Shown here piece by piece: positions 3,778 to 34,135 of a DNA stretch of 64,000 nt (position 1 is its first letter; every line of letters starts with the position of its first letter). The notes below the pieces were generated by a model. The model saw only the letters and a program-made list of their open reading frames with translations. It was not told where the DNA came from and searched no databases. The position numbers and the translations under genes were made by a program. This DNA is from Sternotherus odoratus. Taxonomy: Eukaryota > Chordata > Testudines > Kinosternidae. The stretch lies in the NCBI GenBank assembly GCA_032164245.1, contig JAVMKO010000006.1, forward strand, positions 106,824,624 through 106,888,623, read 5' to 3'.

Positions 3778-6700
3778 TCAGCGGAGAATATTCAGCTGCA
3801 GACAGGAGCCCAGGTGTCTGTGCTGGGCGAAGAAGATGCTGGCGGCTCCCTGGCCCGGCTGTCTTTCTCCCTTCAGGTGTCTGAACTTTTCAAAGTCTTT
3901 CTGATGCTCCCTTCTAAACTGGTCCCGCTCCCGCGCCCGTTGGACGAAGGGTCCCGGGCCCCGGGGCTTGGCCAGGCCGTAGCTCAGCTGGAGGTATTGT
4001 TCCGGGCTGCACCTCATCAGCCTCACCTCCAGGCTGAGCGCCTCCAGCACCAGGTTCTTCAGGGAATTCTCTTCCTCAGTCCGGTGCCAGGCGAAGAAAT
4101 TCAGCGAGGGCAGGAAGTAGCTGGGCAGCTGTTTCTTCTCCAGGCTGAACTCCAGCATCTTCAACAGGGTCCCCAGGGCATCCCGCACCGTGGCCCAGTT
4201 CTCTGCCTCTGAGTTGAGGTCGGAAGCCCAGAACAGGACCATCTGCCAGGGAAGGAGCGAAACAGTTGGAAGAAGAAACATGCAGCTCTAACCACCAGAC
4301 CCCCGCTCCCCTTCTCAGAGCTGGGGAGAGAACCCAGGAGTCCTGGCTCCCAGCCCCTCCCTGCTCTAACCACCAGACCCCGCTCCCCTTCCCAGAGCTG
4401 GGGAGAGAACCCAGGAGTCCTGGCTCCCAGCCCCCTCCCTGCTCTAACCACCAGACCCTGCTCCCCTTCCCAGAGCTGGGGAAAGAACCCAGGAGTCCTG
4501 GCTCCCAGCCCCTCCCTGCTCTAACCACCAGACCCCGCTCCCCTTCCCAGAGCTGGGGAGAGAACCCAGGAGTCCTGGCTCCCAGCCCCTCCCTGCTCTA
4601 ACCACCAGACCCCGCTCCCCTTCCCAGAGCTGGGGAGAGAACCCAGGAGTCCTGGCTCCCAGCCCCTCCCTGCTCTAACCACCAGACCCTGCTCCCCTTC
4701 CCAGAGCTGGGGAGAGAATCCAGGAGTCCTGGCTCCCAGCCCCTCCCTGCTCTAACCACCAGACCCCGCTCCCCTTCCCAGAGCTGGGGAGAGAACCCAG
4801 GAGTCCTGGCTCCCAGCCCCTCCCTGCTCTAACCACCAGACCCCGCTCCCCTTCCCAGAGCTGGGGAGAGAACCCAGGAGTCCTGGCTCCCAGCCCCTCC
4901 CTGCTCTAACCACCAGACCCCGCTCCCCTTCCCAGAGCTGGGGAGAGAACCCAGGAGTCCTGGCTCCCAGCCCCTCCCTGCTCTAACCACTAAACCCCGC
5001 TCCCCTTCCCAGAGCTGGGGAGAGAATCCAGGAGTCCTGGCTCCCAGCCCCCCCTGCTCTAACCACTAGACCCCGCTCCCCTTCCAGGAGCTAGAATAAC
5101 ACCCAGCCCTCTCCGCTCTCCCTCCCCTGCTGCTCTACCCACTAGATCTTCCTCCCCTGGACCTGTGGATGCTCGTATCTCCCATTCCCCGCCCCCTCCC
5201 ACCCTGCCCCTCTGTCAGTCACCTTCAGGTGGTAGGAGGTCAGGACTTTGCCGTAGCGCGGCCCCCACTTCTCCATGTTGATTTGCTTCAGGAGCTGCAG
5301 CGCGTCCCGCCTCCACCCCCCATCGGCATCAATGTCCCTGAGGAGTCGGGTCTCAGCCAGGGCGTAGGTGAGCCTGGGATGGGGGGGGGGGGGAATGAGA
5401 CAGGGCTGAATTAGAGAACGGGGTCAGACAGACCCCCATCCCAAACCTGCACCGGGGTGTGTCCCTGCGCCCCCTGCTGGCGGGGATGGCCCCTGCTCTG
5501 TGCGTGTGTCCTTGACCCCCCCATGCTGGAGGGGACGAGCTCTCGTCTGGGTGAGTTTTTGTTGCTTTCTGTTAGAACAAATGCGATTTGCACGTTTACC
5601 TCCAGTACAGATTCTTGGCCACCAGATCGGTCCCGGTTCTGTAAATTTCCATGATGTTCCAGGTGGGTTTCATCCGCTCCGTGCCCTGCTCCCGGTCCCA
5701 CCAGTCGGAGAGCCACCGGAGATCCTGCCGCGGCCAATCCATGGACATGTCCACTTTATCCCGGATGGTGGGCACCAGGTCTATGGACACAGCTCGGCCG
5801 TCCACCTCCGCACTGAGCTGCACCGCAGAGCGTTCTGCAAAGTCGCTCAGTCTAACGTTGCCTTGGAGAGGGCAAGACAGAGGAGTGGGAGTCAAAAGCA
5901 AACAGCTGACATAGGTCAGAGCTTTGCAGATCTGAGACGATGGAAGAGCAGAGGTCAAGGGAATGAGGGCCAAGATCCCAGGACTCCTGGGTTCTATTTC
6001 TGAGTCTTCCTTTGAGTCCCTGGGACCTTGACTAACTTCATCTCCATGGGCACATGGTCAGTTAGTGGAAGAACTGAAGAGCGAAACCAGGAATCCTGAC
6101 TCCCCAGCCCCTAACTCCGGGAACTCCATTGACGAGAGATTGTGAAGGAAGAGTGAAAAATTGCTCAGAAAACAGCTTTACTGGTGCCCCTCGCTCCCGA
6201 CCCACAGCTCCCTGCTAGCCCAGCCCTGCCCCCCATCTCTGTTGGAGCCCCTCACTCCCGACCTGCAGCCCCTGCCAGCCCAGCCCTGCCCCACACAGCT
6301 CCGCCGGTGCTCCTCACTCCCGACCCGCAGCCCCCTTTTAAATTCATTTCTCCGCTTACAGAACATCTCATTGTATCTCTTTTACACTTACTAATTCCAG
6401 TAACTGGGTTTCTTCTCTCTAAAAACAGAGATGAGGCAAGAAAAGGTCTCGTTAAAATCTGTGAGACTCAGAGTCTTGTATAGACGGCTGATCACAAAGA
6501 TAAAACTGGACTAAAATGAGGAGATTCCTGCCGGGGTGCCTGGTAGTAACTCCCGCCATGGCCTGTAGGGTTGCCCAGGAAATACAGAGTTAAGGGAAAT
6601 GCCTGGACAGGCCTAATTCTGGCACTAGCCCCTGAGAATGACCCCTTCGTCCTGCCTGGATTACGTGTGGGGCAGGGATTAGCTGGAGCAGTGTGGGAGA

Positions 6701-8547
6701 GCTGGGATTGTGATATGAGGATCTCTGGGGATTAGTTGGAGGAGTGTCACTGGGTCTGTTTCTCAGGCTTGGATCAATTCGTGCATCACTAATGGATTAA
6801 CACGCAGAGAGACACTTACCCTCGGCCAGAACATTCTTGACAAATTCATGTAACTTTCTAGCTACCAGAAATGGATCGATGCCGCTACTCCAAAGATCCC
6901 TCTGCAAAGGGAGAAATAACATTTATTCTGATGCTTTAATCCACAATAAAAGGAAGCTGTGGGTCAGGAGTGAGGGGCACCGGCAGAGCTGGGGGGTGGG
7001 GGAATCCAGGGGCGGAGTAGCAGGGGCTGTGGGTCAGGAGTGAGGGGCACCGGCAGAGCTGGGGGGTGGGGGAATCCAGGGGCGGAGTAGCAGGGGCTGT
7101 GGGTCAGGAGTGAGGGGCACCGGCAGAGCTGGGGGGTGGGGGAATCCAGGGGCGGAGTAGCAGGGGCTGTGGGTCAGGAGTGAGGGGCACCGGCAGAGCT
7201 GGGGGTGGGTGAATCCGGGGGTGGAGTAGCAGGGGCTGTGGGTCAGGAGTGAGGGGCACCGGCAGAGCTGGGGGTGGGTGAATCCGGGGCGGAGTAGCGG
7301 GGGCTGTGGGTCGGGAGCGAGGGGCACCGGCAGAGCTGGGGGTGGGTGAATCCAGGGGTGGAGTAGCAGGGGCTGTGGGTCAGGAGTGAGGGGCACCGGC
7401 AGAGCTGGGGGTGGGTGAATCCGGGGCGGAGTAGCGGGGGCTGTGGGTCGGGAGCGAGGGGCACCGGCAGAGCTGGGGGTGGGTGAATCCGGGGCGGAGT
7501 AGCGGGGGCTGTGAGTCGGGAGTGAGGGGCACCGGCAGAGCTGGGGGTGGGTGAATCCAGGGGTGGGGTATCAGGGGCTGTGGGTCGGGAGCGAGGGGCA
7601 CCGGCAGAGCTGGGGGGTGGGTGAATCCAGGGGTGGAGTAGCGGGGGCTGTGGGTCGGGAGCGAGGGGCACCGGCAGAGCTGGGGGTGGGTGAATCCGGG
7701 GCGGAGTAGCAGGGGCTGTGGGTCAGGAGTGAGGGGCACCGGCAGAGCTGGGGGGTGGGTGAATCCAGGGGTGGAGTAGCGGGGGCTGTGGGTCAGGAGT
7801 GAGGGGCACCGGCAGAGCTGGGGGTGGGTGAATCCAGGGGTGGGGTATCAGGGGCTGTGGGTCGGGAGTGAGGGGCACCGGCAGAGCTGGGGGTGGGTGA
7901 ATCCAGGGGTGGAGTAGCGGGGGCTGTGGGTCGGGAGCGAGGGGCACCGGCAGAGCTGGGGGTGTGGACGACTGTAGGATACCTTCTGATACAATCTCAC
8001 TTACCCGTCTCCTGTTTATTTCTTTGATGTCTTCCTCGGTGAGGTCCAGGTCTAGAACCTTCCCATCCAAGACGTCTCGCAGCGTCACCTTGTTATAATC
8101 CACCACCAGCTTGTTCTCCCAGCGGTACACCGGCACCCCGACCTTCAGGCTCAGCCAGGAAGGCAGGAAATGCAGCTCTGTGCCTGGCGCGCTGTACAGG
8201 GCACCCAGCAGGATCAGGTGCGTCCTGTACTGGATGGGGGCCAGGAAGTCGTAGTCGCTGCGGCTGGACTCCGCCCGGACGTGGAGGTCCTGGGCTTGGC
8301 TGCCCACCAGGATGGCTTCCCCCGTGAACAGATGCACATTCCACTCGTGCACCCGCGCCAGGAGGCTGCTGGCCAGAGCTTGCACCAGCTGGCACTCCCG
8401 CTCCCTTCTCCGGTGTTCCCGTTGCTCGGGGTACACGTGGCACTGTAAGAACCAGTCGAGGAACTCCGGGGCGACTGTACGACACTCAGCCTGCTCCTCT
8501 TCCAGGTCCCCTGGCACTCCCGCCTCACTCGGGTACTTGCCCGCCAT
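3778..8547 (-). CDS. gene A: Mab-21 / cGAS-like nucleotidyltransferase (5 exons, 500 aa)
   Basis: Joined coding exons: 8005-8547, 6820-6901, 5600-5861, 5223-5373 and 3778-4242. All have GT-AG sites and consistent phases (0, 1, 2, 0), total 1503 nt. The start ATG at 8547 has G at -3 and +4. The nucleotidyltransferase lobe carries GS at residues 82-83, the acidic pair D98-Y-D100 and the third acid D236 in VSIDLVP. The C-lobe has the Mab-21 signature SYHLK (342-346) followed by LPSYFLPSLNFF. No signal peptide, membrane segment or cGAS zinc insert is seen. Members of this family make nucleotide second messengers (cGAS, cGLRs) or have lost activity. Product and ligand here are unknown. MAB21L3 or another Mab-21 branch is possible. 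The C-terminus after HLK differs wholly from gene B. Confidence 0.9.
4270..5090. repeat. tandem array of about 78 bp in intron 4 of gene A
   Basis: About ten copies of a unit reading ctaaccaccagacccc, then agctggggagagaaccc, then aggagtcctggctcccag. The same unit, in either orientation and in fewer copies, appears at 13920-14000, 14820-15000, 26150-26340, 37490-37710 and 43055-43215. It is therefore a dispersed family that expanded locally here. Confidence 0.9.
6170..6345. repeat. short repeat block in intron 2 of gene A
   Basis: About three units built on ggtgcccctcgctcccgac and cagccctgcc. This is the reverse complement of the unit that fills intron 1 (6955-7970). The two blocks flank exon 2 (6820-6901) in opposite orientations. 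Confidence 0.75.
6955..7970. repeat. about 70-bp minisatellite in intron 1 of gene A
   Basis: About fifteen copies of a unit of roughly 70 bp built on gtgaggggcaccggcagagc. The array runs to within about 40 bp of the exon 1 donor at 8004. The same seed occurs in intron 1 of gene B (16440-16640), intron 1 of gene C (about 32800-32890) and as a 60-bp array at 55535-56480. Confidence 0.92.
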
Positions 8548-8854
8548 CCCCACCGGGCACAGATGGCTCCTGGCAGGGCTGAGCCCTCCTCAGTCTCTGG
8601 GAAAACGCTTGCCGTTCATCTCTGCACTTCCTGGAGGATGCTTCCTCTCCTGGCTGAGCTGCACAGCGGTGTGTATGTGTGGACGGGGAGGGGGAGGTTG
8701 CCGGAGGAGTACGCTGGTTTTCTGTGCACAGGGACCTTTGGCATCTGACTTCCTGAAAACGCCGCGCCCATAATACAGTAATAGTGAAAGTGCCAGAATT
8801 TGGAGATAAAGTCCACTCGGACTCATCGTTTCTAGTCTGAACAGCGAAGGCTCC

Positions 8855-8935
8855 GTGTGGCACTTTAGAGACTAACACATTTATTTGGGCATTAGTTCTA
8901 AAACCCACTTCGGCCCATGCAGCCCCCTGCTCGTC
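8855..8935 (-). mobile_element. Penelope-like tail fragment, about 310 bp upstream of gene A
   Basis: The reverse complement reads as the PLE tail (aagtgggttttagaac, then gttagtctctaaagtgccac). It is a short fragment between the gene A start and unassigned upstream sequence. Confidence 0.55.
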
Positions 8936-10830
8936 TGACTTCCTGTATAAGCCAGTGCGTAGGATTGTGGTATGAGGGGCTGTGCCTTTAAGGGCTGAGC
9001 TCCCAGACTGGGATGCTTTGCTCGTATTGTGTTGAACAGTTAGCTGGAACCGCACTGAGGATATAGCAGAGCCCTTGTGAGGACTGAGTGCTCACTGACC
9101 ACCATCCGACACCAGGAGTGCACGAACGAAGAACAGACGCTGGGTGGAAGGATGGAGCAATTAACTGCCCCGCCAGAGTTCAAACTTGGTGGGAAACTGG
9201 AGGTGGTTTAAATAGCGCTTCCCTCTGTGGGCTCCAGCAAACAGGAAGACAATAGCGATTGTCGTGACAAGAGCTGGTCCGCAAGCAGCTGCTGTGTTTC
9301 AGTTCTCCCTGGCAGAGGGGTGAACGATGAAACTGTCTAGAAGTTTGAGGTATAGGGCACTCGTGTTTCATTCTGGTGAGGAGAGAGAGGTTTGTAATCC
9401 GAGGGGCGTTAGTGATGGGAATACAGCATTCAGGCCTCTTTGCCTGGGATAGACTTTGGGGGTTTGTTTGCTTGTCTGAATTTTGATCTGCTTCTGTCCT
9501 TATGAACATGTCTGAACAAAGAACAGAGACACAGGATGGGGCTGATAGCACAATGAGAAGAGATGAGTTAAGGGGGAGCTGGGCTGGGTGGGAATTTAAG
9601 AGACCAGCGAACACTTGAAGACACCTCGACTCCGATCTCAAGGCAAGGGCAAGCAACCAGTCGGGAGTGGGAGGCATAAGAAATGCTAAAAATCCAGAGA
9701 AAAGGGGCCCCTGGCCGAAACACAACCTCACTCCCTATCCCTCCTGTGGGGTACAAAAGTGGTGATACCGCAGCCCCCGGACTGACGACCTTCCAAAACG
9801 AAACATGGCCATAAATTGTAAGGGGTGGGACCGGGGAAGGCACTTGAGCCTGCTAAGAAAGGGGTGGGGGCAGGAAAAGCCGGACGGGTGCAGAGAGCCA
9901 TGGAGATGCTTGCTTGGTGACCCCGCTAAACCCCTGCCTGGACTCTGGCCTTCTGCTTTCTGTCTGCGGGACAAGACCCAGGGGAGGGGGGTACAAAGAT
10001 TCCTTGGAACGGTGAAATATACAGAGAAATTTGTGCCTACGCTAGCTGCTCGAACCAGCCACCGGAGCGCACTACAATGTAAAGATGTTCCAAGGGAGCC
10101 GGGATGCAAATCATAGTAAAGAGTCTGAGAAGGGGATGGAATTGAAGAGGTCCCAGGACAGTACATGCAGAACTAAGCTGTCCATGGACACCTCCCCGGA
10201 GATATTGGCGTACTCCTTTTGGGAGCTGCCACCTGATGTGCCTAGACTACCTCTGAGCCCGTTTTCCCTGCAGCTTGGGACTTCAGTACCCTGCCTTGTT
10301 TGAGTCAGACACGCTGGCCTGCTGCAAACGCAGATCCAAGTCTGAACCCCGTCCCCTACAAGCTGCAGGCTAAGCTGAAAACAGCTTAAGACGTGCTCCT
10401 GTCTCCGGCACTCAGATACCCAGCTCCCATGGTCCAAACTGGAGACCAGTAACTTGTGCATCACAGGTACTAACTAACAAAACCGGAGTGCCAATACACT
10501 CAAACGGAGCAGGAGGCTTTGGGCTTCAGGGGTGTAAAAGAATTTCACGTCTTTATTTATGGGAAGACCACGTAGCTAAAACTGACCTAAGCCACACATT
10601 GCCACTGGCAGGCCCTTCCCCTTCCCCCCAGAATACAGAGATTATATTTTCCGTCCCAAATGCATCCATTTTCAATTGCTTCCAAACCTGGGAGAGGCGG
10701 GCTGGCTGCAAAAACACTCGCTGGAGCACTGGACGCAAGTGCGGTGCAGCAAAGTTCAGAGCTAGATTTTGTACGTCACTCCGAATTTTAAAAAATCCCG
10801 TCCGGTCTCAGCCAAAATGCGGACTGTGAT
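8936..10830. other. no recognisable gene
   Basis: Unique-looking sequence with scattered short frames on both strands and no known domain or splice-bounded exon. Possible retroelement debris near the right edge leads into the integrase remnant at 11085. Confidence 0.35.
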
Positions 10831-11084
10831 TGCCAGAGCTACTGCCCGGGGTGAAACCCTGCGGAAATCAATCAAGGCTGTTAGTACAGGGCGGCTGGGA
10901 GAGCAGATTCCCAGCCCCTATTATCAATATAAGGGGAGCTCTCCACCCTAGATGGCAATTGTTTAAAGGCACAGGAGGGCGATCCCCAAAGCGTTACAGA
11001 AAACTACGTGACAAAGGATACATGAAGATCAGTTGGGGATTGAAAACCCTCAGAGAACGCCCAGAGCCCTTTTATGCCGGCCTC

Positions 11085-11570: not shown

Positions 11571-11789
11571 TGGTCTCAGACAGGCAACAAGCACAAGAGA
11601 ATGAATCTTTATACACAACCTGTACATACATCACCCAAAAACATTCATGAGCAGTGAGGCTCCAATTTTCAGATGATGCCTTATGACACTGTTTCATAGT
11701 ATAATAATATTGTGTATGATCCATTGATTCAACTGTCTTATGCATATTGATTTTTTCTATAATCCCAATTATATTTGTCTGTATTAACT

Positions 11790-12180: not shown

Positions 12181-12199
12181 GGGAACCTCCCCCCTCTCC

Positions 12200-13440: not shown

Positions 13441-13464
13441 ATCGACGTTGGGAGCAGAGGCTGC

Positions 13465-16400
13465 TCACAGCTCCCTGAAGTCGCTCGTGTCAAAAGATAC
13501 CTTCAGGTGTTTGAACTTTTCAAAGTCTTTCTGATGCTCCCTTCTAAACTGGTCCCGCTCCCGCGCCCGTTGGACGAAGGGTCCCGGGCCCCGGGGCTTG
13601 GCCAGGCCGTAGCTCAGCTGGAGGTATTGTTCCGGGCTGCACCTCATCAGCCTCACCTCCAGGCTGAGCGCCTCCAGCACCAGGTTCTTCAGGGAATTCT
13701 CTTCCTCAGTCCGGTGCCAGGCGAAGAAATTCAGCGAGGGCAGGAAGTAGCTGGGCAGCTGTTTCTTCTCCAGGCTGAACTCCAGCATCTTCAACAGAGT
13801 CCCCAGGGCATCCCGCACCGTGGCCCAGTTCTCTGTCTCTGGGTTGAGGTGGGAAGCCCAAAAAAGAACCATCTGCAAAAAAAACAAGCAGCTGTAACCA
13901 CTAGAGACCGCTACCCTCCCACAACAAGGGGTAGAACCCAGGAGTCCTGGCTCCCAGCCCCTCTCCTCTAACCCACATCCCTCCCAGAACTGAGGAACCC
14001 TGGCTTCCAGCCCTCCTGCTCCAATCTTAGATGGTTCTCCCCTATATCCAAGGATATATCTCCCATTCCACACCCACTCCCCACCCTGGCTCCCCCGTCT
14101 GAGTCACCTTCAGATGGTAGGAGGTCAGGACTTTGCCGTAGCGCGGCCCCCACTTCTCCATGTTGATTTGCTTCAGCACCCGCAGCGCCTTCTGCCTGCG
14201 CCCCCCATCGGCGTCAATATCCTTGAGGAGTCGGGTCTCAGCCAGGGAGAAGGTGAGCCTGGAGTGGGGTGGAGGCAAATGGGGGAGGCTGACTGGGTCA
14301 GACAGACACCCCCATCCCAAACCTGCCCCGAGGTGTGTGTGTGTCTGTCCACCCCTCCCTGCTGGAGGGGATGAGCCCTGCTCTGTGCATTTGTGTTACC
14401 TTCTGCTGGAACCAATGAGATTTGCACGTTTACCTCCAGTATGAATTCTTGGCCACCAGATCGGTCCCGGTTCTGTAAATTTCCATGGTGTTCCAGGTGG
14501 GTTTCATCCGCTCCGTGCCCTGCTCCCGGTCCCACCAGTCGGAGAGCCACCGGAGATCCTGCCGCGGCCAATCCATGGACATGTCCACTTTATTCCGGAT
14601 GGTGGGCACCAGGTCTATGGACACAGCTTGGCCGTCCACCTCTGCACTGAGCTGCACGGCTGGACTAATTGGGTCAATACCCACAGTGTTCTCCAGTCTA
14701 ATGTTTCCTTGGAGAGGGCAAGACAGAGGAGTGGGAGTCAAAAGCAAACAGCTGACATAGGTCAGAGCTTTGCAGATCTGAGACGATGGAAGAGCAAACG
14801 TCAAGGGAATGAGGGCCAAGATCCCAGGACTCCTGGGTTCTATCTCAGGCTCTGGGAGGGGACCGGGGTCTAATGGCCTAGAGTTGGGGGTGGGCTGGGA
14901 ATCAAGACTCCTGGGTTCTCTCCCAGCTCCAGGAGGGGAGCAGTCTAGTGGTGAGAGCGTGGGGCCTGGGAACCAGGACTCCTGGGTTCTATTTCTGGGT
15001 CTCTCTGACCTTGTGTAACTAACTTCATCTCCATGGGCACACGGTGAATTAGTGGAAGAACTGAGAATAGAAACCAGTAATCCTGACTCCCTAACCCCTA
15101 ACTCTGGGAACTCCATTGTGCGAGAGGGATTATGAAGGACCAGTGAAAAATTTCTCACCCCACAGCTGTGCTGGTGCCCCTTAATCCTGACTGCCAGCCC
15201 TGGGCTTCCCCCTTTATGCCCTGCCAATGCCCTGACTCACAGTCCCTGCTATCACAGCTCTGGGCTTCCTCAACACACAACTCTGCTTGTGCCCTTGAAC
15301 CCTAACCAGCAACCCCTACTATTGCGGCCAGGGGCTCTCCCACCCCCCACAGCTCTGTTAGTGCCCCTCAAACCCAACTCACAGCCCCCTTTTCAGTGTA
15401 TTTACTATTTTACCCTACACAATTGAACAGTTTTGCCGTCTGTATTTCCCTTGTGCTTATAATTTCTCCCCTTACAGAGTCCCTTCATGTATATAATTTT
15501 TACTTACTAATGCCGGGAGCAGGGTTTCTTCTCTCTAAAAGCAGAGATGGGGCAAGCAAAGGGCTCGTTAAAATCTGTCACACTCAGAGTCTTGTATCAC
15601 AAAGGTAAAATTGGAAAAAAAATGATGAGATTCCTGCCGGGTTGGAAGAAGTCCGATTTCTTTGCGCCTCTATTAATCAAGTCTTGGCCAGCTCACAGTT
15701 ACAGCTATGGGTTGTCTTAAGTGCTGACATCAACACACTGGAAATACGATCAGTTCGCCTTGTTCCACACTCGCTAGTTCCACTGTTTCACTCCTTCACT
15801 TATGGGGATGATTTTTATCCCAGTACAGGAAAATCCTTACAGCCCCTGCTAGCATGGGTGCTGTTATACCAGGATTAAAGGGCTGTCGTGCTTGGCAAGG
15901 AATTGACTGGAGCTACAGCAACTCAAGCCAGGTTGAAATGGGATTAAGAACAGCCTCAGTACATGGATATAAAAACACATTTGCCCAGTGCAAATTGGTG
16001 TGATGCCCTTTACCAAGGTGGCAAGGGTGCACCTCTTTGGCAAACTCCTTGGGAAGTTAAAGAACGAATTAACAGCAGGTGGCAAAAAGATAAACCTGAA
16101 AAATATTCCTCAATCGAGCTGCTAGGGTTTAGGTCACAGAGAATTCAGAACCCTCAGTGCCCCCCCCCCCCTTAAAAAAAAAGTTAATAGAAAAAAACCA
16201 AAACAATAACCCAATCTATGGCAGTGTTTATCATCCTCCTGACTGGCCTTAACTAACTGATGCAGTAATAATGAATTAATATTCACAAAGAAACTTACCT
16301 TCAGCCAGAGCTTTCTGGACACACTCCGACAGTTCTGACATTACACTATATGGATCAACTCTACTCTTCCAAAGCTGTAGCTGAAAAGGGATGAAATAAG

Positions 16401-17213
16401 ACAACTTCAGATGCTTTCATCCAAATCAAGAGGACGCTGCGGGTTGGGACTGAGTGGTACCAGTAGAGCTGTGGTGGGGAGCCCAGGGCTGAGGGAGCAG
16501 GGGCTGCAGGCGGAGAACAAGGGGTGCCGGCGGAGCTGTGGGGTCAGAAAGCCCCGGGCTGGGCTGGCAGGACTGAGGGGCTCTGGCAGACCGGAGGAGG
16601 TGCGAGAGGGAAGATCCCAGAGCTGGGCTAGCAGAGGGTGACTTTCTGACTGCCCTCTGATCTCACTTACCTGCCGGTCATTGATTGTTTTTATGTCTTC
16701 CTCTGTGAGGTCCACGTCTACAGTCTTCCTCTCCAAGAGATCTCTCATTATCAGCTTGTTATAATCCACCACCACCTTGTTCCCCCAGCGGTACACCGGC
16801 ACCCCGGGCTTCAAGCTGTCCCAGACAGGCAGATGACCCTTTGGGGTGTACAGTTTGCTGTACAGGCTGCCCATAAGGATCAGGTTCGTCCTGTACTGGA
16901 TGGGGGCCAGGAAGTCATAGTCGCTGCTGCTGGACTCTGTCCGGACGTGGACGTCCTGGGCTTGGCTGCCCACCAGGATGGCTTCCCCCGTGAACAGCTC
17001 CATGTTACACTCATGCACTCGAGTCATGATCCTGCTGACCAGAGCTTGCACCAGCTGGCACTCCCGCTCCCTTCTCTGGCGGTCCCTTTGCTCGGGATAC
17101 ACATGGTTCCCCAAGAAGCATTTCAGGAACTCCTGGACAAGTGTATGACACTCAGCCTGCTCCTCTTCCATGTCTCTTGGCAGTCCTGCCTCACTCGGGT
17201 ACTTGCCTGCCAT
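13465..17213 (-). CDS. gene B: Mab-21 / cGAS-like nucleotidyltransferase (5 exons, 485 aa)
   Basis: Joined coding exons: 16671-17213, 16299-16380, 14434-14707, 14108-14258 and 13465-13872, total 1458 nt. Exons 1, 2 and 4 have exactly the lengths of gene A (543, 82, 151). Exon 3 is 12 nt longer, adding four residues before the central strand. GS is at residues 82-83, the acidic pair at D98 and D100 (SDYDFLAP), the third acid at D240 (VSIDLVP), then SYHLK and LPSYFLPSLNFF. The catalytic set looks complete, so activity is plausible but unproven. Gene A is the closest relative, with exon 5 almost identical up to HLK. After that B ends quickly (VSFDTSDFREL), unlike A. The ATG at 17213 is preceded by GTGGGG, as in A. 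Confidence 0.9.
16440..16645. repeat. short repeat block in intron 1 of gene B
   Basis: Degenerate units related to the ggctgtgggt...gaggggcaccgg repeat of gene A intron 1 lie between the exon 1 donor (16670) and exon 2. Unlike in gene A it has not expanded. The shared position suggests the seed predates the A/B duplication. Confidence 0.65.
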
Positions 17214-20020: not shown

Positions 20021-20459
20021 CCCAAACCCTTTACAAACTCCTTGATTGGAGACCCAGCAATATCCCCTTCACAGACCCTCTCTCAGGGATCCCCCACTAT
20101 TCCCCTCAGAGACCCTTACTAAACCTCAGAGCACCCCATGCCACCTCAGAAATACACAACTTCTCCCTCAGAGACCCCGAATATCTCCCAATATACCCAC
20201 GGGGACCTTCCCTCCGCTGTCCCCCAGGAAACCCAATGCCCCCTCAGAAATAACCCAACAGCCCCTCAATAACCCACACAGAAACCCACCAATTTCCCCT
20301 GCCAGAGACTTGTCCAAATATCCCTGAGAGACCTTCCAGTTTCATCCCCAAGAACAAGCCCCCAATATCCCTTCCCAAGGACCACACAACCTCCTCTCAA
20401 CATCCAATTCAGACACCCCTAATATCCTCAAGGGGACCCCACAATATCCCCCTCAGAGA

Positions 20460-22060
20460 CCCCCACCATATCCCCACTACCCCCTTCAGACTCACAATAT
20501 CTCCCCACCATCCCCCTCAGAGAACCCCAATATCTTCCCTCCAGCCCCCTCAGAGACCCCCAATATCTCCCCACCATCCCCTTCTGAGACCCCCAATATC
20601 TTCCCTCCAGCCCCCTCAGAGACCCCCAATATCTCCCCACTACCTCCTTCAGAGACCCCCAATATCTCCCCACCATCCCCCTGAGACCCCCAATATCTCC
20701 CCACCATCCCCTTCTGAGACCCCCAATATCTTCCCTCCAGCCCCTTCAGAAACCCCCAATATCTCCCCACCATCCCCTTCTGAGACCCCCCAATATCTTC
20801 CCTCCAGCCCCTTCAGAGACCCCCAATATCTCCCCACCATCCCCTTCTGAGACCCCCCAATATCTTCCCTCCAGCCCCTTCAGAGACCCCCAATATCTCC
20901 CCACCATCCCCTTCAGAGACCCCCAATATCTCCCCACCATCCCCTTCTGAGACCCCCCAATATCTTCCCTCCAGCCCCTTCAGAGGGCCCCAATATCTCC
21001 CCACCATCCCCTTCAGAGAGCCCCAATATCTCCCCACCATCCCCCTCAGAGACCCCCAATATTTCCCCACCATCCCCTTCTGAGACCCCCAATATCTCCC
21101 CACCATCCCCTTCAGAGACCCCCAATATCTCCCCACCATCCCCTTCAGAGACCCCCAATATCTCCCCACCATCCCCTTCTGAGACCCCCAATATCTCCCC
21201 ACCATCCCCTTCAGAGAGCCCCCAATATCTCCCCACCATCCCCTTCAGAGAGCCCCCAATATCTCCCCACCATCCCCTTCAGAGACCCCAATATCTCCCC
21301 ACCATCCCCTTCAGAGACCCCCAATATCTCCCCACCATCCCCTTCAGAGACCCCCAATATCTCCCCACCATCCCCTTCAGAGAGCCCCCAATATCTCCCC
21401 ACCATCCCCTTCTGAGACCCCCAATATCTCCCCACCATCCCCTTCAGAGACCCCCAATATCTCCCCACCATCCCCTTCAGAGACCCCCAATATCTTCCCT
21501 CCAGCCCCCTCAGAGACCCCCAATATCTCCCCACCATCCCCTTCTGAGAGCCCCAATATCTCCCCACCATCCCCTTCAGAGACCCCCAATATCTCCCCAC
21601 CATCCCCTTCAGAGACCCCCAATATCTTCCCTCCAGCCCCCTCAGAGACCCCCAATATCTCCCCACCATCCCCTTCTGAGACCCCCAATATCTCCCCACC
21701 ATCCCCTTCAGAGACCCCCAATATCTCCCCACCATCCCCTTCAGAGACCCCCAATATCTTCCCTCCAGCCCCCTCAGAGACCCCCAATATCTCCCCACCA
21801 TCCCCTTCTGAGACCCCCAATATCTCCCCACCATCCCCTTCAGAGACCCCCAATATCTCCCCACCATCCCCTTCAGAGACCCCCAATATCTTCCCTCCAG
21901 CCCCCTCAGAGACCCCCAATATCTCCCCACCATCCCCTTCAGAGAGCCCCCAATATCTTCCCTCCAGCCCCTTCAGAGACCCCCAATATCTCCCCACCAT
22001 CCCCTTCAGAGAGCCCCCATATCCTCCTGAGACCCCCGATATCCCGCCAACATCCCCCTC
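20460..22060. repeat. 33-bp C-rich minisatellite
   Basis: About 45-50 copies of a 33-bp unit (ccccttcagagacccccaat, then atctccccaccat), mixed with a variant containing atcttccctccagcc. As 33 is a multiple of 3, all frames on the minus strand stay open; these are not genes. A looser lead-in runs from 20040. The array ends 30 bp before a GC-rich centre and is mirrored by a G-rich array beyond it. Confidence 0.95.
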
Positions 22061-22089
22061 AGAGACCCCCTAGACACCCCCCCTCAGGT

Positions 22090-22245
22090 CCCTGTCCCCA
22101 GTGACCGTTGGCGCCCTGACCCCCCCCTCCCCTCCCATTGCAGCTGGGAGGGCGGGAAGGAAGCGGCTCCAGCCAGGGCGGGGGCGTAACGGCCGCAACG
22201 GTCCCGGGGGGAGGGGCCTGAGGGGGATGTCGGTGGGGGGGGGGG
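22090..22245. promoter_or_regulatory. GC-rich, promoter-like centre between inverted arrays
   Basis: A unique, CpG-containing segment with three Myb-type motifs: CCGTTG at 22105-22110, TAACGG at 22187-22192 and CAACGG at 22196-22201. The sequence gttggcgcc is close to an E2F site. GACCGTTG (22103-22110) and CAACGGTC (22196-22203) form an inverted pair 85 bp apart. This could be a bidirectional or plus-strand promoter for the exon at 23885. That is inference from motifs only. Confidence 0.35.
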
Positions 22246-22249
22246 GGTG

Positions 22250-23820
22250 TCTCTGAGGGAGTCATGTCGGGAGCACGCTGCGGAGGGTCTCTGAGGGGAG
22301 GTTGAGGGGATATTGGGGTCTCCAAGGGGGGATGTCAGGGGTCTCTGAGGGAGATATTGGGTGTCTGAGGGGGGGATGTGTCAGGGGGCTCTGAGCTGGG
22401 ATGTTGGGGGGGGGGCTCTGAGGGGATATTGGGAGGTCTCTGAGTGGGGATGTCAGGGTCTCTGAGGGGAGATTCAGGGGATATTGGGGTCTCCAAGGGG
22501 GGATGTCAGGGGTCTCTGAGGGAGATATTGGGTGTCTGAGGGGAGGGATGTGTCGGGGGCTCTGAGCTGGGATGTTGGGGGGGGGCTCTGAGGGGATATT
22601 GGGAGGTCTCTGAGTGGGGATGTCAGGGTCTCTGAGGGGAGGTTGAGGGGATATTGGGGTCTCCAAGGGGGGATGTCAGGGGTCTCTGAGGGAGATATTG
22701 GGTGTCTGAGGGGGGGATGTGTCAGGGGGCTCTGAGCTGGGATGTTGGGGGGGGGGCTCTGAGGGGATATTGGGAGGTCTCTGAGTGGGGATGTCAGGGT
22801 CTCTGAGGGGAGATTCAGGGGATATTGGGGTCTCCAAGGGGGGATGTCAGGGGTCTCTGAGGGAGATATTGGGTGTCTGAGGGGAGGGATGTGTCGGGGG
22901 CTCTGAGCTGGGATGTTGGGGGGGGGCTCTGAGGGGATATTGGGAGGTCTCTGAGTGGGGATGTCAGGGTCTCTGAGGGGAGGTTGAGGGGATATTGGGG
23001 TCTCCAAGGGGGGATGTCAGGGGTCTCTGAGGGAGATATTGGGTGTCTGAGGGGGGGATGTGTCGGGGGGCTCTGAGCTGGGATGTTGGGGGGGGGGCTC
23101 TGAGGGGATATTGGGAGGTCTCTGAGTGGGGATGTCAGGGTCTCTGAGGGGAGGTTGAGGGGATATTGGGGTCTCCAAGGGGGGATGTCAGGGGTCTCTG
23201 AGGGAGATATTGGGGTTTTCTGAGGGGAGGGATGTGTCGGGGGCTCTGAGCTGGGATGTTGGGGGGTTTCTGAGGGGAGATTGAGAGGATATTGGGGTCT
23301 CCAAGGGGGGATGTCAGGGGTCTCTGAGGGAGATATTGGGTGTCTGAGGGGGGGATGTGTCGGGGGCTCTGAGCTGGGATGTTTGGGGGGGTCTTTGAGG
23401 GGAGACTGAGGGGATATTGGGGTCTGAGGAAGGCAGTTGGGGGTCTCTGAGGGGACTATGGGGGTGTCAGAGGTCTGTCAGGGGATCTCTGAGCAGGGAT
23501 ATTGGGGAGATATGGGGGTTTCTAAGGAGGATATTGGGGGGCTCTGAGGGGCGATAGGGTGTCTCTGAGGAGGGACATTGGGGGGTCTCTGAAGATATAT
23601 AGGGGTGTCAGGGAGGATGTTGGGGCAGTCAGTCTCTCAGGAGGGATGGGGGTCTCAGAGGGATGTTGGGGATATTTTGGGGATCTGAAGGGGATGGTGG
23701 GGAGATATAGGGAGTCTCTGATAAGGGACATCAGGGGGTTTCTGAGATCGGATATTGGGGCCTCTGAGGGGGGAGGTTGGGGAGATATTGGGGTTCTCTG
23801 AGGGGGCGATTGTCTCTGTA
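22250..23820. repeat. G-rich minisatellite with a 170-bp higher-order unit
   Basis: Subunits of 30-60 bp (gaggggatattggg, gggatgtcaggggtctctga) are ordered in a unit of about 170 bp. It is marked by tctccaagggg near 22319, 22490, 22661, 22829, 23000, 23171 and 23299. The text is roughly the reverse complement of the C-rich array at 20460-22060. Many runs of three to nine G make G-quadruplexes likely on the plus strand. Confidence 0.93.
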
Positions 23821-23884
23821 CACCCCCACAGCCCGCCACGGGCACTGACTCAAGGACACTGAGCTTGAGGCCCCGTCCCGCCAG

Positions 23885-23986: not shown

Positions 23987-24054
23987 GTAAGCTGGATGGG
24001 GCAGTGGGTCGCTGTGGGACTCAGGACTCCTGGGTTCTGTTCCTGGCTCTGCCA

Positions 24055-27176: not shown

Positions 27177-27761
27177 TCACAGGATTTTAAGGGACTGGGT
27201 GTTGCTCCCATTGTCATGCCAGCAGGGGTCAAAGAAGGGGTAGACGGGGGCGTTCTTGAAGTCAGCATGGTAGAAGGTGTATAGGGGGATCAAATTACTA
27301 GGGTCATTGGCGTTGTAGAAAGTCACTTCCGTGCCCATGTAATTGAGATAGACCCCAATGGTCTCAGGTCGGGGGTTACAGTCCAAGGGCATCGGATTGG
27401 TGTCAAACGCCCAGTACGGCTTCTCGGGCTTCTCCTGGTCGTAGCCAAAGAGCCAGTAGCCGTTGGTGCAGACCTCCTCAGATCACGGCCACCACCAGTA
27501 CTTCCGCTGGATCAGTCTGCCCTGTCTCTCCGCTCGCTCCGAGACGACACCCAGGTTCCAGCGCCGCTTCCCACAAACACCTCCCAGTAGTGCTGCTGCG
27601 CGCTGAAGCTCTGTTGGGCCACCACACCGATGGCCGTGTCGAATCGCCTTGGGCTCGAGCTGACGTTCCCTGTGGAAGTCCCACATCTGACTTCCTTCCC
27701 GTCCGCCGAGATCTCTAACGGGATGGGCTGTGGCTGGATCCAGGGTTAGATCCTCCCTCCC
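27177..27761 (-). pseudogene. broken PRY-SPRY (B30.2) exon
   Basis: A dead copy of the exon at 39762-40351. The frame is intact from the terminal TGA (27177-27179) up to the GTCTGC codons. A Trp codon is then changed to TGA (27483-27485, after KYWWWP). A 4-bp deletion near 27571 shifts the frame where the intact copy has GRKRRW. The acceptor AG at the 5' end is changed to GG (ttttccgg). Three independent lesions show loss of function. PRY-SPRY domains of butyrophilins and TRIM proteins bind protein or phosphoantigen ligands; this copy cannot. Confidence 0.88.
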
Positions 27762-28039
27762 CGGAAAAGGCAGATAGGGTCAGGGAAAGGGCTTTATTCT
27801 GCAGGTTTATGGCTTTTGCCGTCACTGCCGTCCCCCTGATACTGATTTTTGGGATGGGCCACAGAAGTCCCAGCCCTGCTGTGAGCCCAGCCTGTCTCAC
27901 ATTAAGCAGGAGTGAGTCTGGTCACGGTTTGGAGGGGAATCTCCCTGGAAAGCACAGTGAGTGACTTTACCGTTGGAGTTAACATGGTGGTAAGGGACAC
28001 AGTGCTGCAGAGAGGTACAGGTGCTCATTAGGGGGCGTT

Positions 28040-29000
28040 CTCCTCTCAGTGCCAGCCCACACTTTACTCACTCCATGGCAAGGACCGGACCAGATGCCTC
28101 AGACATGTCAATTTTAAACCCGGGATAATTCTCAGACGTGACATCCACCATGGCAACCCATTCTGCTGCTTGCACCGTCCCGTCCCTTGGTGCCTGGATC
28201 TGGTGTAACTACAATTTGTTACCCGCACAAATTTCTCTATCCCTTCCACACTATAGGGACACACACCTTTACCCAGTTCCTAGGGCTCAAGATGCAACCC
28301 TGTTAATTTATACAGCCACCCTTACCCAGTTCCTAGGGCTCAGGACACATCTTCCTGCGGGTTGGCAGGATCTTTAGCCGCTGAAAGAGCCTCACACAGT
28401 AATATTCTTATCCTCTATTTATTGACAATTCCCAGACAAACAGAATACACAAGCTAAACACACAGTATCATGCTCACCAATCCTGGGACAGGCAAGCAGG
28501 CTTCCCCTGTATATGACCAGCAAGGTCAGTCTCTGGATCTTAGCTGCTGCACCTCAGGGTCAGAAAAGTCCTGGCAGCTTTTATCTCAGGCTGGGTCTTG
28601 GAGGTGAGTTCTTTTCCTCAGGGGTTCCTTATCTCCTTTGGTCTTCTTCCAGCCCTTCTCCTCCTTGCTTCCGATCTTCTTCTCCTCAGCTCCTTCTTGG
28701 ATCCCAGTTTTTATAATGATATTTGAGTCTTGCTGACCTTAACCAATCATCTTAGTATAATTTTACTAACCAATCATAACAAAATTACCTAACCAATCCT
28801 ACCCCACCACCTTAACTGATTTACACATAGCACAATTAATTATACAGGAGACAGAAACCATTACAAACCAGACAGAGATCACAGGTCAAACAATAGGAAA
28901 GTGTCATGATAATGCTTTAGCTGGTGACAGTGAGAACTATTAGGGCGAGTCCCCCTCTCACAACCTGGTGTGAATCTTTTCAATACATTTTAGATGGAAT
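28040..29000. other. LTR-like, non-coding
   Basis: Contains a tandem cctttacccagttcctagggctca (two copies near 28270 and 28320), CCAAT-rich text with several aaccaatca motifs (28740-28800), and the end gggcgagtccccctctcac. It resembles an LTR in minus orientation. No ends were fixed and no coding part was found. Confidence 0.35.
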
Positions 29001-29007
29001 GTGAGTA

Positions 29008-29525
29008 CAGTAAAACCTCCATTTAACGGACTAATTCGGGCGAGGGGGTGTCCGTTAAATCAAAAAGTCTGTTATTTAATAATAAAAAAAACCACGAGCT
29101 GTCGGAGCAGCAGCCCGTCCGCCACAGGGTCGGGGCGGCAGCTCCGCAGCCCGCCCACTGCTGGAACCCGGGCGGCAGCCGGGAGCCGGCAGCCCGCCCG
29201 CCCGCAGGAGCCGGCAGCCAGCCCGCCCACTGGCGGGACTCGGGCGGGAGCCGGGAGCTGGCAGCCCGCCCGCAGGCAGGAGCCGGCAGCCAGCCCGCCC
29301 ACTGGCGGGACTCGGGCGGGAGCCGGGAGCTGGCAGCCAGCCCGCTGGCGGGACTCAGGCAGGAGCCGGGAGCCGGCAGCCAGCCCGCCTGCTACTGTGA
29401 CCCGGGCGGGAGCCGGCAGCCAGCCCCCGGGAAATGGATTTCGGATGCATCAGACTTGCTCAGAAATTTTGTCCGTTGCATCCGAAGTCCGTTAAATCGA
29501 GGTCCGTTAAATCGAGGGTTTACTG
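29008..29525. mobile_element. Tigger/pogo-like non-autonomous DNA transposon
   Basis: Terminal inverted repeats CAGTAAAACCTCCATTTAAC and its mirror (ttaaatcgagggtttactg) are bordered by a TA duplication at 29006-29007 and 29526-29527, as expected of Tc1/mariner-pogo elements. The inside (29150-29420) is a GC-rich tandem repeat of about 60 bp built on ggcagccagcccgcccactg. The long frames there are repeat artefacts. Confidence 0.8.
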
Positions 29526-29527
29526 TA

Positions 29528-30112
29528 TGTGATTCCAGGCTTGCAGCTAATGGCGGCTGCTTCTTCAGTCTGGCTGCAGAAGGTGGCTTTGGTTCAGGCC
29601 TTCCAGCATGGCTACTGAAAAGCCATATTGTTACACTGGGGTGGCAGAGCAGAGGGGCTGGTGAGAGCATTGTCATTTCTGTACTCACATCAAACACCTC
29701 TGTTCACAACAGTGCTTGGGGAATGGGACATGGGGCCTGTTCATTGTGGCTGGATGTGCATTTCACACCCACTGTCCCCTGAATATTTTACCCAGCTTCA
29801 CCCAGACAAACCATTGATAAGAATGGGGGAAATTTTCAAGCGAAGAAAGGTTGGGGGGCAGGAAGCTATATACCCGAGGAACCTCGTGACAAAATAACCC
29901 CGACAATTCAGCACTAACTCTCACCCTGGTCCCTACAGAGCTCAGCAATTTTCAAGACAAACTGGTGATGCATGAGCATTTTAGAGTTGCTCAGATGACA
30001 TGTTTCTCATTCTTAGCAATGGCTGTGGCTACTTCCCGGCACAATTCTATAGCCAGGATCTGCTCCTCTGTTAAACCCTACAGGGCTCTACCCGTTCCCT
30101 CCCTTGGACTGG
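29528..30112. other. 3' flank of gene C, nothing recognised
   Basis: No exon, repeat core or AATAAA on the minus strand was recognised in the roughly 580 bp downstream of the gene C stop. The poly(A) signal of gene C is therefore unknown. Confidence 0.35.
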
Positions 30113-32953
30113 CTAGGCCATTACATTCCCGTTGTCCGGCTCTTCCTCCTCCCATTCATACAGCTGTTTGTCCTCCAACTCCTTCAGCTTCTTCAGGTGG
30201 CTTGCTTTAAATCCCCAGAGAGATGCCTCTGCTCTGCTGAAGGCCCCTGGATGCTCAGAATCCTTCTTGGGGACTCTCCAGGATATATATTGCACCGGAT
30301 CCACCTCCAACAGCTCCCCCTCCTTGTCAAGAACCTGCAAGGCCAGGCGCTCAAAGAACCTGTTGCCTTCCCTGTAGCGCTTGTTGAAGAGATTAAAGTC
30401 ACGCAGGAAATAGTGCGGGAGCTTTCCCTTGTTCACGCAGTGACGTAGGATGCTCAGGAGGGTCTTCAGGGATGACTCCAGGGTCTCCCATTTCTCCGTC
30501 TCCGGGTGGATCTCTTTGGCCCACAGCAGCACGGTCTGCACAGAGAGAGGAAAGTTACATAGCCAAGATAAAGGCAATCTGTGTAACTCCTCGTGTTCTC
30601 AACACCAGCTTGGATTCTGACCCCAATGGAGCTACGGCCTATTGAACCCAGCTGGGATCTGACCCCATTGACCCCAATGGATCTATGACCGCGTGACCCC
30701 AGCTGAGTTCTGGCCCCATTGACTCCAATGGAACTAAGGCCAAGTGACACAAGCTAGGCCAGTCTTTTTGGTAGTTTCCTTGAGAGATTTTTGTTGGGTT
30801 CACACTCCCCGCCCTCATCAGCAGTTCAGATTTGGTCTGCCCTTAATATTTTTATGGGTGACCAAGTTGGAGCTGGGGGATTGAGCAGTTCTTAAATTCA
30901 GACACTTGAGCAACACTGCAGAGAAAACATGTCCGAGTTAAAGGTTCTCCAGGCTGACCTGAAGAAATCCCTTTGCAGCCCCAAATCTGGTGACCTCGAG
31001 CATGTGAGCCAGACCCACCAGTCAGGCAGAGTCGTCTCTGGACCAGCTCAGAGCACTGGCCCACCCCTTCTGGGGTCCCGTCTCCAGCTGTAGCAGGTCC
31101 CCAGTGCTCCATGGGAAATTGAAGGAAACCCAGAATGAGCCTGGCCAGTTGTGCACTGAGGGGAGAAAAGTCCCTTCCTGATCTCCACAGATGATTAGCC
31201 TAAGCCCTGAAGCATGAGATTGGATCAGAGTCGAAACAGATGATAATTATACAATATAGCCAGATCTCTCTCTGACTCCTCCAGCAAAGCAGGGAAGACA
31301 CCCAGACTCAATAGACCAACACGGATTTCAGTGCCTGGGATCTGACATAACTCACAATACCTCGGACCAGAGCCTGAACCCAGACAGAGCTACCTATGCT
31401 TGAATTATCCACACCCCCTGGCCAGCATCCCGCCCGGGCATGCTGGGAGAGTTACCTTCAGGTGGTAAGATGTCAATATCTTGCCATATTCTGGGACCCA
31501 GCACTCCTTGTTTATGAACTTCAGGAGTCTCAGAGCTTTCCGTCGCTGCCCCCCGTCACTGTCGATGTCCCGCAGAAAAGCTGTCTCAGCATTAGCAAAA
31601 GAGAACCTGGAACCGAGGGAGAGAGCAACCTCATTGAATGTTGGTAAACGAGGGATTTCTGTATAAACAGCCCCTACGCCGCACCCCAGAGGCAGCCGCA
31701 TATCAGTGCCAGGTGCAGACTGCCATTAACCAAACCAAGGCACTCCTGAATGGGAATGAGTGTCCACACAGGGCTATCCCAGGATAACTAGACTGGCTTA
31801 AATTCAAGTCTTGGCTTAAACCAAAGAAGGTTTCCCATGTAGACAAGGCCCAAGTTTCATTTTCCTTTGCCACTAACTTTTCCAGAGTTCAAGAGTGGAA
31901 AAAGAAGGAAAAGGAATAGATGGGGAGGAAACCAGCCTGGACTCCATCCTTCTATTGGATTCACTGGCCAAAAAGGGGGCAGAGGATGAAAAAAACAAAC
32001 AATATTTCAGAAATTCACATTTTTTCTAGTTTTCAAAAGCTGAACATTTCAGTTTGAGTCAAAATGAAAATGTCTCCCTGGAAAATAAAAATGTTGATTC
32101 AGGACCAAGAGAACATTTCAGTTCCTTTCAGCGGCGGATCTTTTTTACCTCCAGAAAACATCCTTGGCCACTACATCAGCTCCGACTCTCCTAAGTGCCT
32201 CTCCCTTCTGGCAGAATCTTTCCTGGCTGTTGCCCGGCTCCTCGTCCCACCAGTCGGACAGTCTGGCTAGGTCGCTTCTCTGCCAATCCTCAGACAACAT
32301 CACCTTATCCTGGACAGCAGGGACCAGATCAACATAGACTAGCTCCTCCTCGCCCAGCCGGAAAATCAGCTGCACCGCCGGGCATTTGGGGTCCCAGGGC
32401 TGCAGTGTCATTCTCTCTAGGAGATGGGGAGGAAACAGAAGATCCAGTGATGCACATAGAAACATAGGACTGGGTGGGTTCTCATATCTACCAGTTACAG
32501 ATGTGGTTGAAGCTGCTGGCCCTACTAACAGATGCTGGGGAATGGGGGGGGTGGTTGTGTGCTCCCCATTTCCCCCCTTTTCACCAAAATCCATACAAAT
32601 CCATTTGTTGATGACTAGAAATTTCCCTGAAAGTTCAGCACGGATCTGCTGCCAGAGTCCTGCTTTGGCTGGTAACTAAGAGACCTGCCTGCAGTATTAT
32701 TAACACCAAGCCTTAGAAATCGGGACTGGGGCCCCCAAATACCTTAGTACCGTTCTTCTTTCTCTTTGTTTTTATTGAAATTGTTTCCATGGAATAGCAC
32801 TGAGGCTGCGGGTCGGGACTGAGGGGAACCTGTTGTGAGGTCAGAGCCCGGGGGCTGCGGGTCTGGAGTGAGGGGCCCCGGCAGAGCTGGTGTGTGTTTG
32901 TGTGTGTGGACAGGGCTAGCAGGGGGCCGGGGGGGTTTGCCCAGGCCCTGGAG

Positions 32954-33024
<71 letters not shown>

Positions 33025-33067
33025 ACAGGGCTTGCAGGGGGCCGGGGGGTTCGCCCAGGCCCTGGAG

Positions 33068-33116
<49 letters not shown>

Positions 33117-33157
33117 AGGGCTAGCAGGGGGCCGGGGGGGTCGCCCAGGCCCTGGAG

Positions 33158-33189
<32 letters not shown>

Positions 33190-33311
33190 GACAGGGCTAG
33201 CAGGGGGCCGGGGGGGTCGCCCAGGCCCTGGAGAGCGGGTGTGTGTGGGTGTGTGTGTGGACAGGGCTAGCAGGGGGCCGAGGGGTTCGCCCAGGCCCTG
33301 GAGAGCGTGTG

Positions 33312-33351
<40 letters not shown>

Positions 33352-33470
33352 GACAGGGCTAGCAGGGGGCCAGGGGGTTCGCCCAGGCCCTGGAGAGCGG
33401 GTGTGTGTGTGTGTGTGTGTGTGGACAGGGCTAGCAGGGGGCCGGGGGGTTCGCCCAGGCCCTGGAGAGC

Positions 33471-33506
<36 letters not shown>

Positions 33507-33552
33507 ACAGGGCTAGCAGGGGGCCGAGGGGTTCGCCCAGGCCCTGGAGAGC

Positions 33553-33589
<37 letters not shown>

Positions 33590-34135
33590 CAGGGCTAGCA
33601 GGGGGCCGGGAGGTTCGCCCAGGCCCTGGAGAGCGGGGTGGGTTGGCCTCACCTTGAACCGATCTCTCTCTCCCGCGTTGGCGTTCCCGGGACGCGGGGC
33701 CGGTTCATCGCAGTCGGCCGTAGCCCCCTCCGCTCTCAGGGTGTCCGGATCCACCACCAGTCTGCTCCCGCAGCGGAACACCGACACCCCCCTGCACCCG
33801 TAGATGTAGGTGGGGAGCCGCCGGTCGATGGCGCTCGGGTCCCGGAGCGTCCTGCGGCCCCGCAGCCGGAGCTCGGAGGGGAAGCGCAGCGGGATGAGAA
33901 AGTCGAGGGCGCTGGCGCTGGCGTGGCCCTGGACGTGCAGGTCCTGCTCGTGGCTCCCCATGGGCTTGGCATCTGCGGGGTACAGCCCGGTGCTGCTCTG
34001 ATACAGCCACTCGATCAGCTTGGCCACCGTCTTCCGCACCACCTCGTAGCTCCTCCCGGCGCGCCAGTCTTCATCGTCCCCCCGCACGAACACGCGGTCC
34101 CGGTAAAACCGCTGCAGGGACTCTTCCCCGGCCAT
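30113..34135 (-). CDS. gene C: divergent Mab-21 / cGAS-like protein (5 exons, 471 aa), catalytic acid missing
   Basis: Joined coding exons: 33653-34135, 32585-32675, 32149-32416, 31456-31606 and 30113-30535, total 1416 nt. Phases match A and B, and exon 4 is again 151 nt. Exon 2 was placed from its LW start and phase; its donor (TTTG, then gtgaaa) is weaker, so it is the least sure exon. GS is at residues 60-61. The pair that reads D-Y-D in A and B reads A76-L-D78 here (SALDFLIP), while the third acid D221 (VYVDLVP) is kept. SYHLK and [12 protein letters not shown] are present. Loss of one metal ligand predicts weak or no catalysis and perhaps a binding or scaffold role. An IRF-type element lies just upstream. 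The C-terminus is acidic ([11 protein letters not shown]). Confidence 0.85.
32930..33645. repeat. compound (GT)n minisatellite in intron 1 of gene C
   Basis: Nine or so units each join a unique 45-bp block (gacagggctagcagggggcc, then gcccaggccctggagagc) to a GT run of 10-75 bp. It starts within the ggctgcgggt...gcagagct seed shared with genes A and B and ends about 10 bp from the exon 1 donor. Open frames of Cys-Val repeats here are artefacts. Confidence 0.95.

Follow-up and report, generated by a model that had tools for sequence, protein, structure and literature searches.

To our knowledge, cGAS is the only vertebrate member of its nucleotidyltransferase (NTase) fold with a proven second-messenger role. 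We describe here three Mab-21-type genes, A, B and C, of the turtle Sternotherus odoratus, two of which may encode further active enzymes of this fold. The window, i.e., the whole stretch of DNA analyzed, is 64,000 nucleotides long, corresponds to bases 106,824,624–106,888,623 of contig C6 in a 1.76-Gb genome, and ends 106 kb short of the contig end. As a sequence-only reading of the window had described, the three genes lie head to tail, all on the minus strand.

Among the closest described proteins are the cGAS-like receptors (cGLRs). In the accessible part of PMC9980059 these are defined by the motif h[QT]GS X8-20 [DE]h[DE]h X50-90 h[DE]h, and those that sense nucleic acid have an isoelectric point (pI) above 8.5. 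The vertebrate clusters given there are cGAS, Mab21L1, L2, L3 and MB21D2, and vertebrates are stated to encode more uncharacterised cGLRs with complete sites. The vertebrates covered by PMC1784063, as far as its accessible text goes, are zebrafish, two frogs, chicken, rat, mouse and human, with no turtle or squamate.

The reading we favor, with middling confidence, is that A and B belong to a distinct and ancient reptilian clade of the Mab-21 family and encode functional nucleotidyltransferases of the cGAS fold that make a nucleotide signal, and that C is a decaying copy from the sister lineage. In the active site, window A and window B both show GS, DYD and SIDLV. An alignment of the A/B type together with D, a further turtle paralog, has 16 rows (window A and B plus 14 of the 19 turtle matches, isoforms included and five short matches left out). 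Each of the three catalytic acids is Asp in 16/16 of these rows, and 124 of 415 core columns (30%) are invariant. The donor-nucleotide residues, which are those named for cGAS in the accessible part of PMC4897736, are likewise conserved: E in 15/15, K in 16/16, Y in 15/16 and K in 16/16. The GS serine is less constant, with S in 13/16, C in two (isoforms of one Caretta gene) and G in one. In a 32-row alignment that includes squamates, all three acids are kept in 13/13 turtle or turtle-like rows. The squamate rows keep the donor residues in 16/16 and the first acid in 9/16, whereas the third acid is found in 0/16 (14 K, 2 N). Turtle exceptions at the donor site are a Cys in Chrysemys and an R for the donor E in P0023 (Dermochelys C-type), the model of which looks damaged there.

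The call of a Mab-21/cGAS fold made in the sequence-only reading holds up on sequence, on the structure of an ortholog and on phylogeny. Compared with solved structures, the family profile matches cGAS-like receptor 1 first (3.1e-34) and then cGAS (3.5e-24), and it aligns to mouse cGAS at GS..DxD (weakly), the third Asp, the donor Glu, LLK and SYHxK. These structural comparisons concern the Chelydra B ortholog P0003 and the family profile; judged from sequence only, the NTase core aligns weakly (16.9 bits). Structural alignment to the invertebrate cGLR1 8gjy gives 19–23% identity; 8gjy and 8gjw are the best sequence matches among solved structures, although A and B differ from them in motif spacing and in the residue before GS. 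In the last exon, Pfam Mab-21_C scores 31.7 bits in A, 33.8 in B and 47.4 in C (cut-off 24.1 bits); none of the three exon 1 frames, taken alone, has a Mab-21 family match in Pfam, the NTase domain spanning exons 1–3. PF03281 is listed in precomputed annotation for 17 of the 20 database matches of protein A, and the precomputed Pfam content of the orthologs is two Mab-21 domains only. Judged by the C-terminal lobe, A and B are members of the Mab-21 superfamily. They are neither cGAS nor MAB21L3.

The strongest rival, suggested also by the squamate proteins, is that A and B are non-catalytic signaling scaffolds. Having bound a partner or a nucleotide, they would signal through contact, for example by TBK1/IKK-epsilon activation, or they would serve as adaptors, the role of MiD51. 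The three shrimp proteins LvMab21-1/2/3 are reported, in the accessible part of PMC12928593, to activate TBK1/IKK-epsilon; they resemble the turtle genes, by description only, in being several non-cGAS Mab21 paralogs within one animal, and differ in that they are reported to act on IKK-epsilon without cGAMP production. A pure scaffold, however, would not need the three acids that the turtle rows keep without exception at an overall column invariance of less than a third. We regard a scaffold role as possible but doubtful.

To place the genes, three homology searches were run, each scoring about 8000 candidates that share most words (7992, 7997 and 7994). Protein A returned 20 matches, 19 from turtles and one from a lizard. 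Protein C, queried with a doubtful exon 2 included, returned 27, of which six are from named turtles, 17 from squamates and four unnamed. The 32-row profile returned 23 proteins, i.e., the turtle ones and one squamate MAB21L3. No relatives from vertebrates other than turtles and squamates appeared in these searches, an absence that is provisional for crocodilians, birds, mammals, amphibians and fish because only about 8000 word-sharing candidates were scored per search. A/B-type orthologs occur in Emydura and in other turtles; Emydura is side-necked, and the remaining turtles with orthologs are hidden-necked.

Within the genome, a search with gene A exon 1 matches A, B and C only. A search with PF20266 gives 14 matches over the cut-off, A, B and C among them; the others we take to be MAB21L1, MAB21L2, cGAS (contig C3), MAB21L3 (C1), MB21D2, ITPRIP-like and MiD-like genes, and two cGAS-like genes. 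The latter two lie at C6:31636587-31636883, where a zinc-thumb-like exon is kept with the acids EFDLML/MSIDLVP, and at C21:8669615-8669917, where the thumb is altered and the motif is MSIDLVLALE.

A tree of the C-terminal lobe was built from 34 rows (20 of 50 database proteins, the three window proteins and 11 from the same genome). In it A, B and C form one clade with 17 turtle and squamate proteins (99/98), which excludes the genome's own cGAS, MAB21L1/2, MAB21L3, MB21D2, ITPRIP-like and MiD-like proteins. Its cGAS and the two cGAS-like genes form a clade of their own (100/99). The nearest vertebrate gene, weakly (82/78, an open fork), is MAB21L3. The clade does not, then, fall inside a well-described single-copy family, the outcome that the sequence-only reading had set against its own proposal. 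Its statement that the cluster is not a duplicated cGAS is likewise borne out: cGAS is separate in the tree, and the zinc thumb (an H-CC-C insert) is absent between AET and LLK in A, B and C, while the genome's own cGAS exon has NHGNTKTCCES..CC.

In a full-length tree of 27 rows, the A/B/D clade is turtle-only (100/100), and turtle C proteins join the squamate proteins in a second clade (100/99). Constraining all turtle proteins to one clade is rejected by the approximately unbiased (AU) test with a p-AU of 0.0067, a value not to be taken at face value, as the group was defined with knowledge of the first tree and both trees carry long-branch warnings, which concern outgroup rows (several MAB21L1/2, MB21D2, ITPRIP-like and MiD-like rows are long). 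The same test rejects a recent, turtle-only origin of A/B by copying of C. Under the tree model, the split between the A/B and C lineages would predate the turtle–squamate divergence, and squamates would therefore have lost the A/B lineage. The lineage-specific expansion proposed earlier thus fits the turtle pair A/B and does not fit C, which would have split off before that divergence and looks decayed.

In the titles and abstract openings searched, no reptile cGAS-like clade beyond cGAS is described, and five locus names occur in none of the papers searched. As far as that literature shows, the A/B/C clade is a real, undescribed branch of the cGAS/Mab-21 family. Its members carry database names such as 'uncharacterized protein' and the misleading 'mab-21-like 3', 'MAB21L1' and 'C2orf54-like', and the PMC9980059 motif, as written in the accessible text, would miss A/B-clade proteins by spacing. 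Tentatively, we go further and suggest that the clade represents a second ancient vertebrate cGAS-like signaling enzyme, catalytic in turtles (A/B) and, in its sister lineage, dead in squamates, with a trigger outside the double-stranded DNA mode of cGAS and maybe a product other than 2'3'-cGAMP. A non-cGAS clade that is catalytically complete in turtles but switched off in the squamates examined amounts to a natural experiment on two questions, namely whether a further nucleotide alarm signal exists in vertebrates and what role is left to the fold after the loss of catalysis.

A and B depart from the cGLR motif: they read LVGS, with V for Q/T, then X14 and DYDF, and the stretch between the second and third acids is 144 residues in A and 148 in B. 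The absence of a zinc thumb and a predicted whole-protein pI of 6.7 (A) and 7.2 (B) count against direct nucleic-acid sensing; for the core alone the values are 6.9 and 8.8. Because of the spacing, beyond the 50–90 of the motif, and the residue before GS, A and B would not be filed as cGLRs under the PMC9980059 definition, though they may work like one: spacing aside, the catalytic [DE]h[DE], the third acid and the G[S/G] loop are present in both (GS, DYD, D). With cGAS (MB21D1) they have in common the bilobal NTase fold, the GS loop, DxD plus a third Asp, and the donor residues E/K/Y/K. They differ from it in the missing thumb, the separate clade, the greater distance from acid 2 to acid 3, the near-neutral pI, and an intron at the SYHAK site, which A has and cGAS lacks. 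The missing thumb and near-neutral pI are also the reason for proposing a trigger outside the cGAS mode.

On the favored reading of A and B as working enzymes, the GS loop and the triad Asp98/Asp100/Asp245 would hold two metal ions, and the helical lobe would hold the donor nucleoside triphosphate through Glu312, Lys334, Tyr352 and Lys355. A trigger would probably bind the spine/platform face, as in cGAS, and order the active site. The enzyme could then join two nucleotides into a second messenger, probably cyclic, to be read by STING or another receptor. STING ligand-domain searches of this genome give three matches over the cut-off, together on contig C8, two of which contain a stop and are perhaps intron sequence; a reader may therefore be available. 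Whereas the frames, the clade, the fold of an ortholog and the conserved residues are directly seen, the expression, catalysis, product, trigger and immune role of A and B are what we infer from them. The uncharacterised sensing locus suggested earlier is possible, and the intact triad, of which the sequence-only reading made no mention, strengthens it.

The exons of A and B are as follows, all on the minus strand.

8005..8547, minus: gene A exon 1, spine helix and first part of the NTase core, with GS loop and DYD motif (LVGS..SDYDF)
6820..6901, minus: gene A exon 2, 82 nt
6392..6418, minus: gene A micro-exon, 27 nt, phase 1-1; its peptide matches P0001
5600..5861, minus: gene A exon 3, third catalytic Asp (SIDLVP)
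5223..5373, minus: gene A exon 4, 151 nt, donor-nucleotide residues E, K, Y, K
3778..4242, minus: gene A last exon (exon 5 of the sequence-only reading, sixth coding exon), Mab-21_C helical lobe and stop
16671..17213, minus: gene B exon 1, GS loop and DYD
16299..16380, minus: gene B exon 2, 82 nt
15508..15534, minus: gene B micro-exon, 27 nt
14434..14707, minus: gene B exon 3, third catalytic Asp
14108..14258, minus: gene B exon 4, 151 nt
13465..13872, minus: gene B last exon, Mab-21_C

Each gene thus has six coding exons, not the five first listed, with GT-AG introns throughout and no stop or frameshift. The exon that had been missed is a symmetric 27-nt micro-exon, phase 1-1, within what had been read as intron 2. 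Counting it, the proteins are 509 (A) and 494 (B) amino acids long. Gene A with the micro-exon encodes LAEERRNPVTGISNV, the same as Chrysemys P0001. Since the peptide is absent from Chelydra P0003 and a version of it is present in Chelydra P0047, the micro-exon may be skipped at times. The intron phases 0, 1, 2, 0 across the five exons first listed, and the 151-nt exon 4 in A, B and C, are as originally given.

Divergence between A and B is uneven. Within the last exon the two genes share 99% identity over a block of 300 nt (B 13500-13799 against A 3870-4169), while the best block in exon 1 reaches 85%; synonymous divergence (dS) falls from 0.32 in exon 1 to 0.10–0.15 in exons 3–5. These differences fit sequence exchange between A and B, with apparent gene conversion over the 3' half and divergence of the 5' half. 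Overall, with the micro-exon left out, nonsynonymous divergence (dN) is 0.137 and dS 0.230, a dN/dS of about 0.6. The nearest turtle orthologs are 17% (A) and 13% (B) distant.

Gene C differs from this pattern. Its candidate exons, again on the minus strand, are as follows.

33653..34135, minus: gene C exon 1, GS loop retained, first catalytic Asp gone (SALDF)
32585..32675, minus: in-frame 'exon 2' available to C, weak donor, probably not real
32149..32416, minus: gene C exon 3, third Asp retained (VYVDLVP)
31456..31606, minus: gene C exon 4, 151 nt
30113..30535, minus: gene C last exon, Mab-21_C

In C-type orthologs of turtles (P0021-P0024) and most squamates, about 57 residues separate exon 1 from exon 3. 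The frame at 32675-32585 was rejected as exon 2, as it is not homologous to that segment. Nor does gene C intron 1 (1,236 nt, CA-rich) match the segment as it reads in Natator, Gopherus and Rhineura: 56/200 and 180/200 shuffled peptides score as high as the Natator and Gopherus segments, respectively. As a control, A exon 2 against the B region holding B exon 2 scores 61. The catalytic motif is SALDF in C and SDFDF in 4/4 turtle C-type orthologs. Given that intron 1 yields no match to the ortholog segment and that C has lost its first catalytic Asp, it looks like a decaying copy of the sister lineage in this species, although the assembly may have collapsed a repeat. The stop-free reconstruction claimed for all three genes therefore stands for A and B and is unconvincing at exon 2 of C.

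A and B might also be active nucleotidyltransferases with a non-immune job, such as developmental signaling or an RNA-directed activity, by analogy with the developmental MAB21L1/2. The loose C-lobe grouping with MAB21L3 speaks for this, as do two introns that A/B and MAB21L3 share in position and phase (between YHL[KQ] and MVLFW, phase 0; before the third-acid exon, phase 1). The distance to orthologs, the sequence exchange and the decaying neighbor would, however, fit an immune gene better, and we think a non-immune job unlikely. That A and B are functionless duplicates, decaying as C appears to be, is very improbable: the weak A–B constraint and the repeat-rich site near the end of C6 would suit it, but decay is at odds with frames of 500 amino acids, splice sites that are all intact, the unbroken triad, and orthologs on both sides of the turtle neck-type division. 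Finally, that they are ordinary MAB21L3 duplicates, despite the database names and shared introns, is hardly credible. The C-lobe tree rejects duplication of either MAB21L3 or cGAS and joins the genome's own MAB21L3, on C1, to that of Salvator (100/99), apart from the 20 rows that include A, B and C; moreover, the intron before exon 4 differs. MAB21L3 also has HFL at the place corresponding to DxD.

No core exons of the D-type paralog itself (P0012, P0016) were found in the window. Two exons at 59491-59408 and 56656-56546 on the minus strand encode a small signal-peptide and transmembrane protein like the N-terminus of Eretmochelys P0016, a database model that fuses this N-terminus to a D-type Mab-21 protein. 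Probably they form a gene of their own in linkage with the cluster.

Of the interferon-type motifs noted earlier, interferon-stimulated response element (ISRE)-like copies of GAAANNGAAA number nine in the window against 1.84 expected from shuffles of its very uneven sequence. One of them stands close to C:

34188..34197, minus: ISRE-like GAAACCGAAA, 53 nt upstream of the C ATG

A second lies 592 nt upstream of the B ATG, and none lies within 600 nt of A. Gamma-activated (GAS-type, STAT) sites are not enriched in the window (nine against 15 expected). The presence of PRY-SPRY sequence is confirmed:

40397-39765, minus: open PRY-SPRY exon upstream of C
27479-27177, minus: partial SPRY copy between B and C

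In Lepidochelys, the model P0043 combines Mab-21_C with PRY. Elsewhere in the window, long tandem arrays of 33-nt and 170-nt units at 20300-23300, and others with repetitive open frames at about 56700-59400, yield spurious long open reading frames; both regions are near a contig end. Two mobile-element fragments lie on the plus strand: a GIY-YIG domain at 36001-36696, which we take to be from a Penelope-like element, and a Myb/SANT-like domain at 52871-53170, presumably of Harbinger type.
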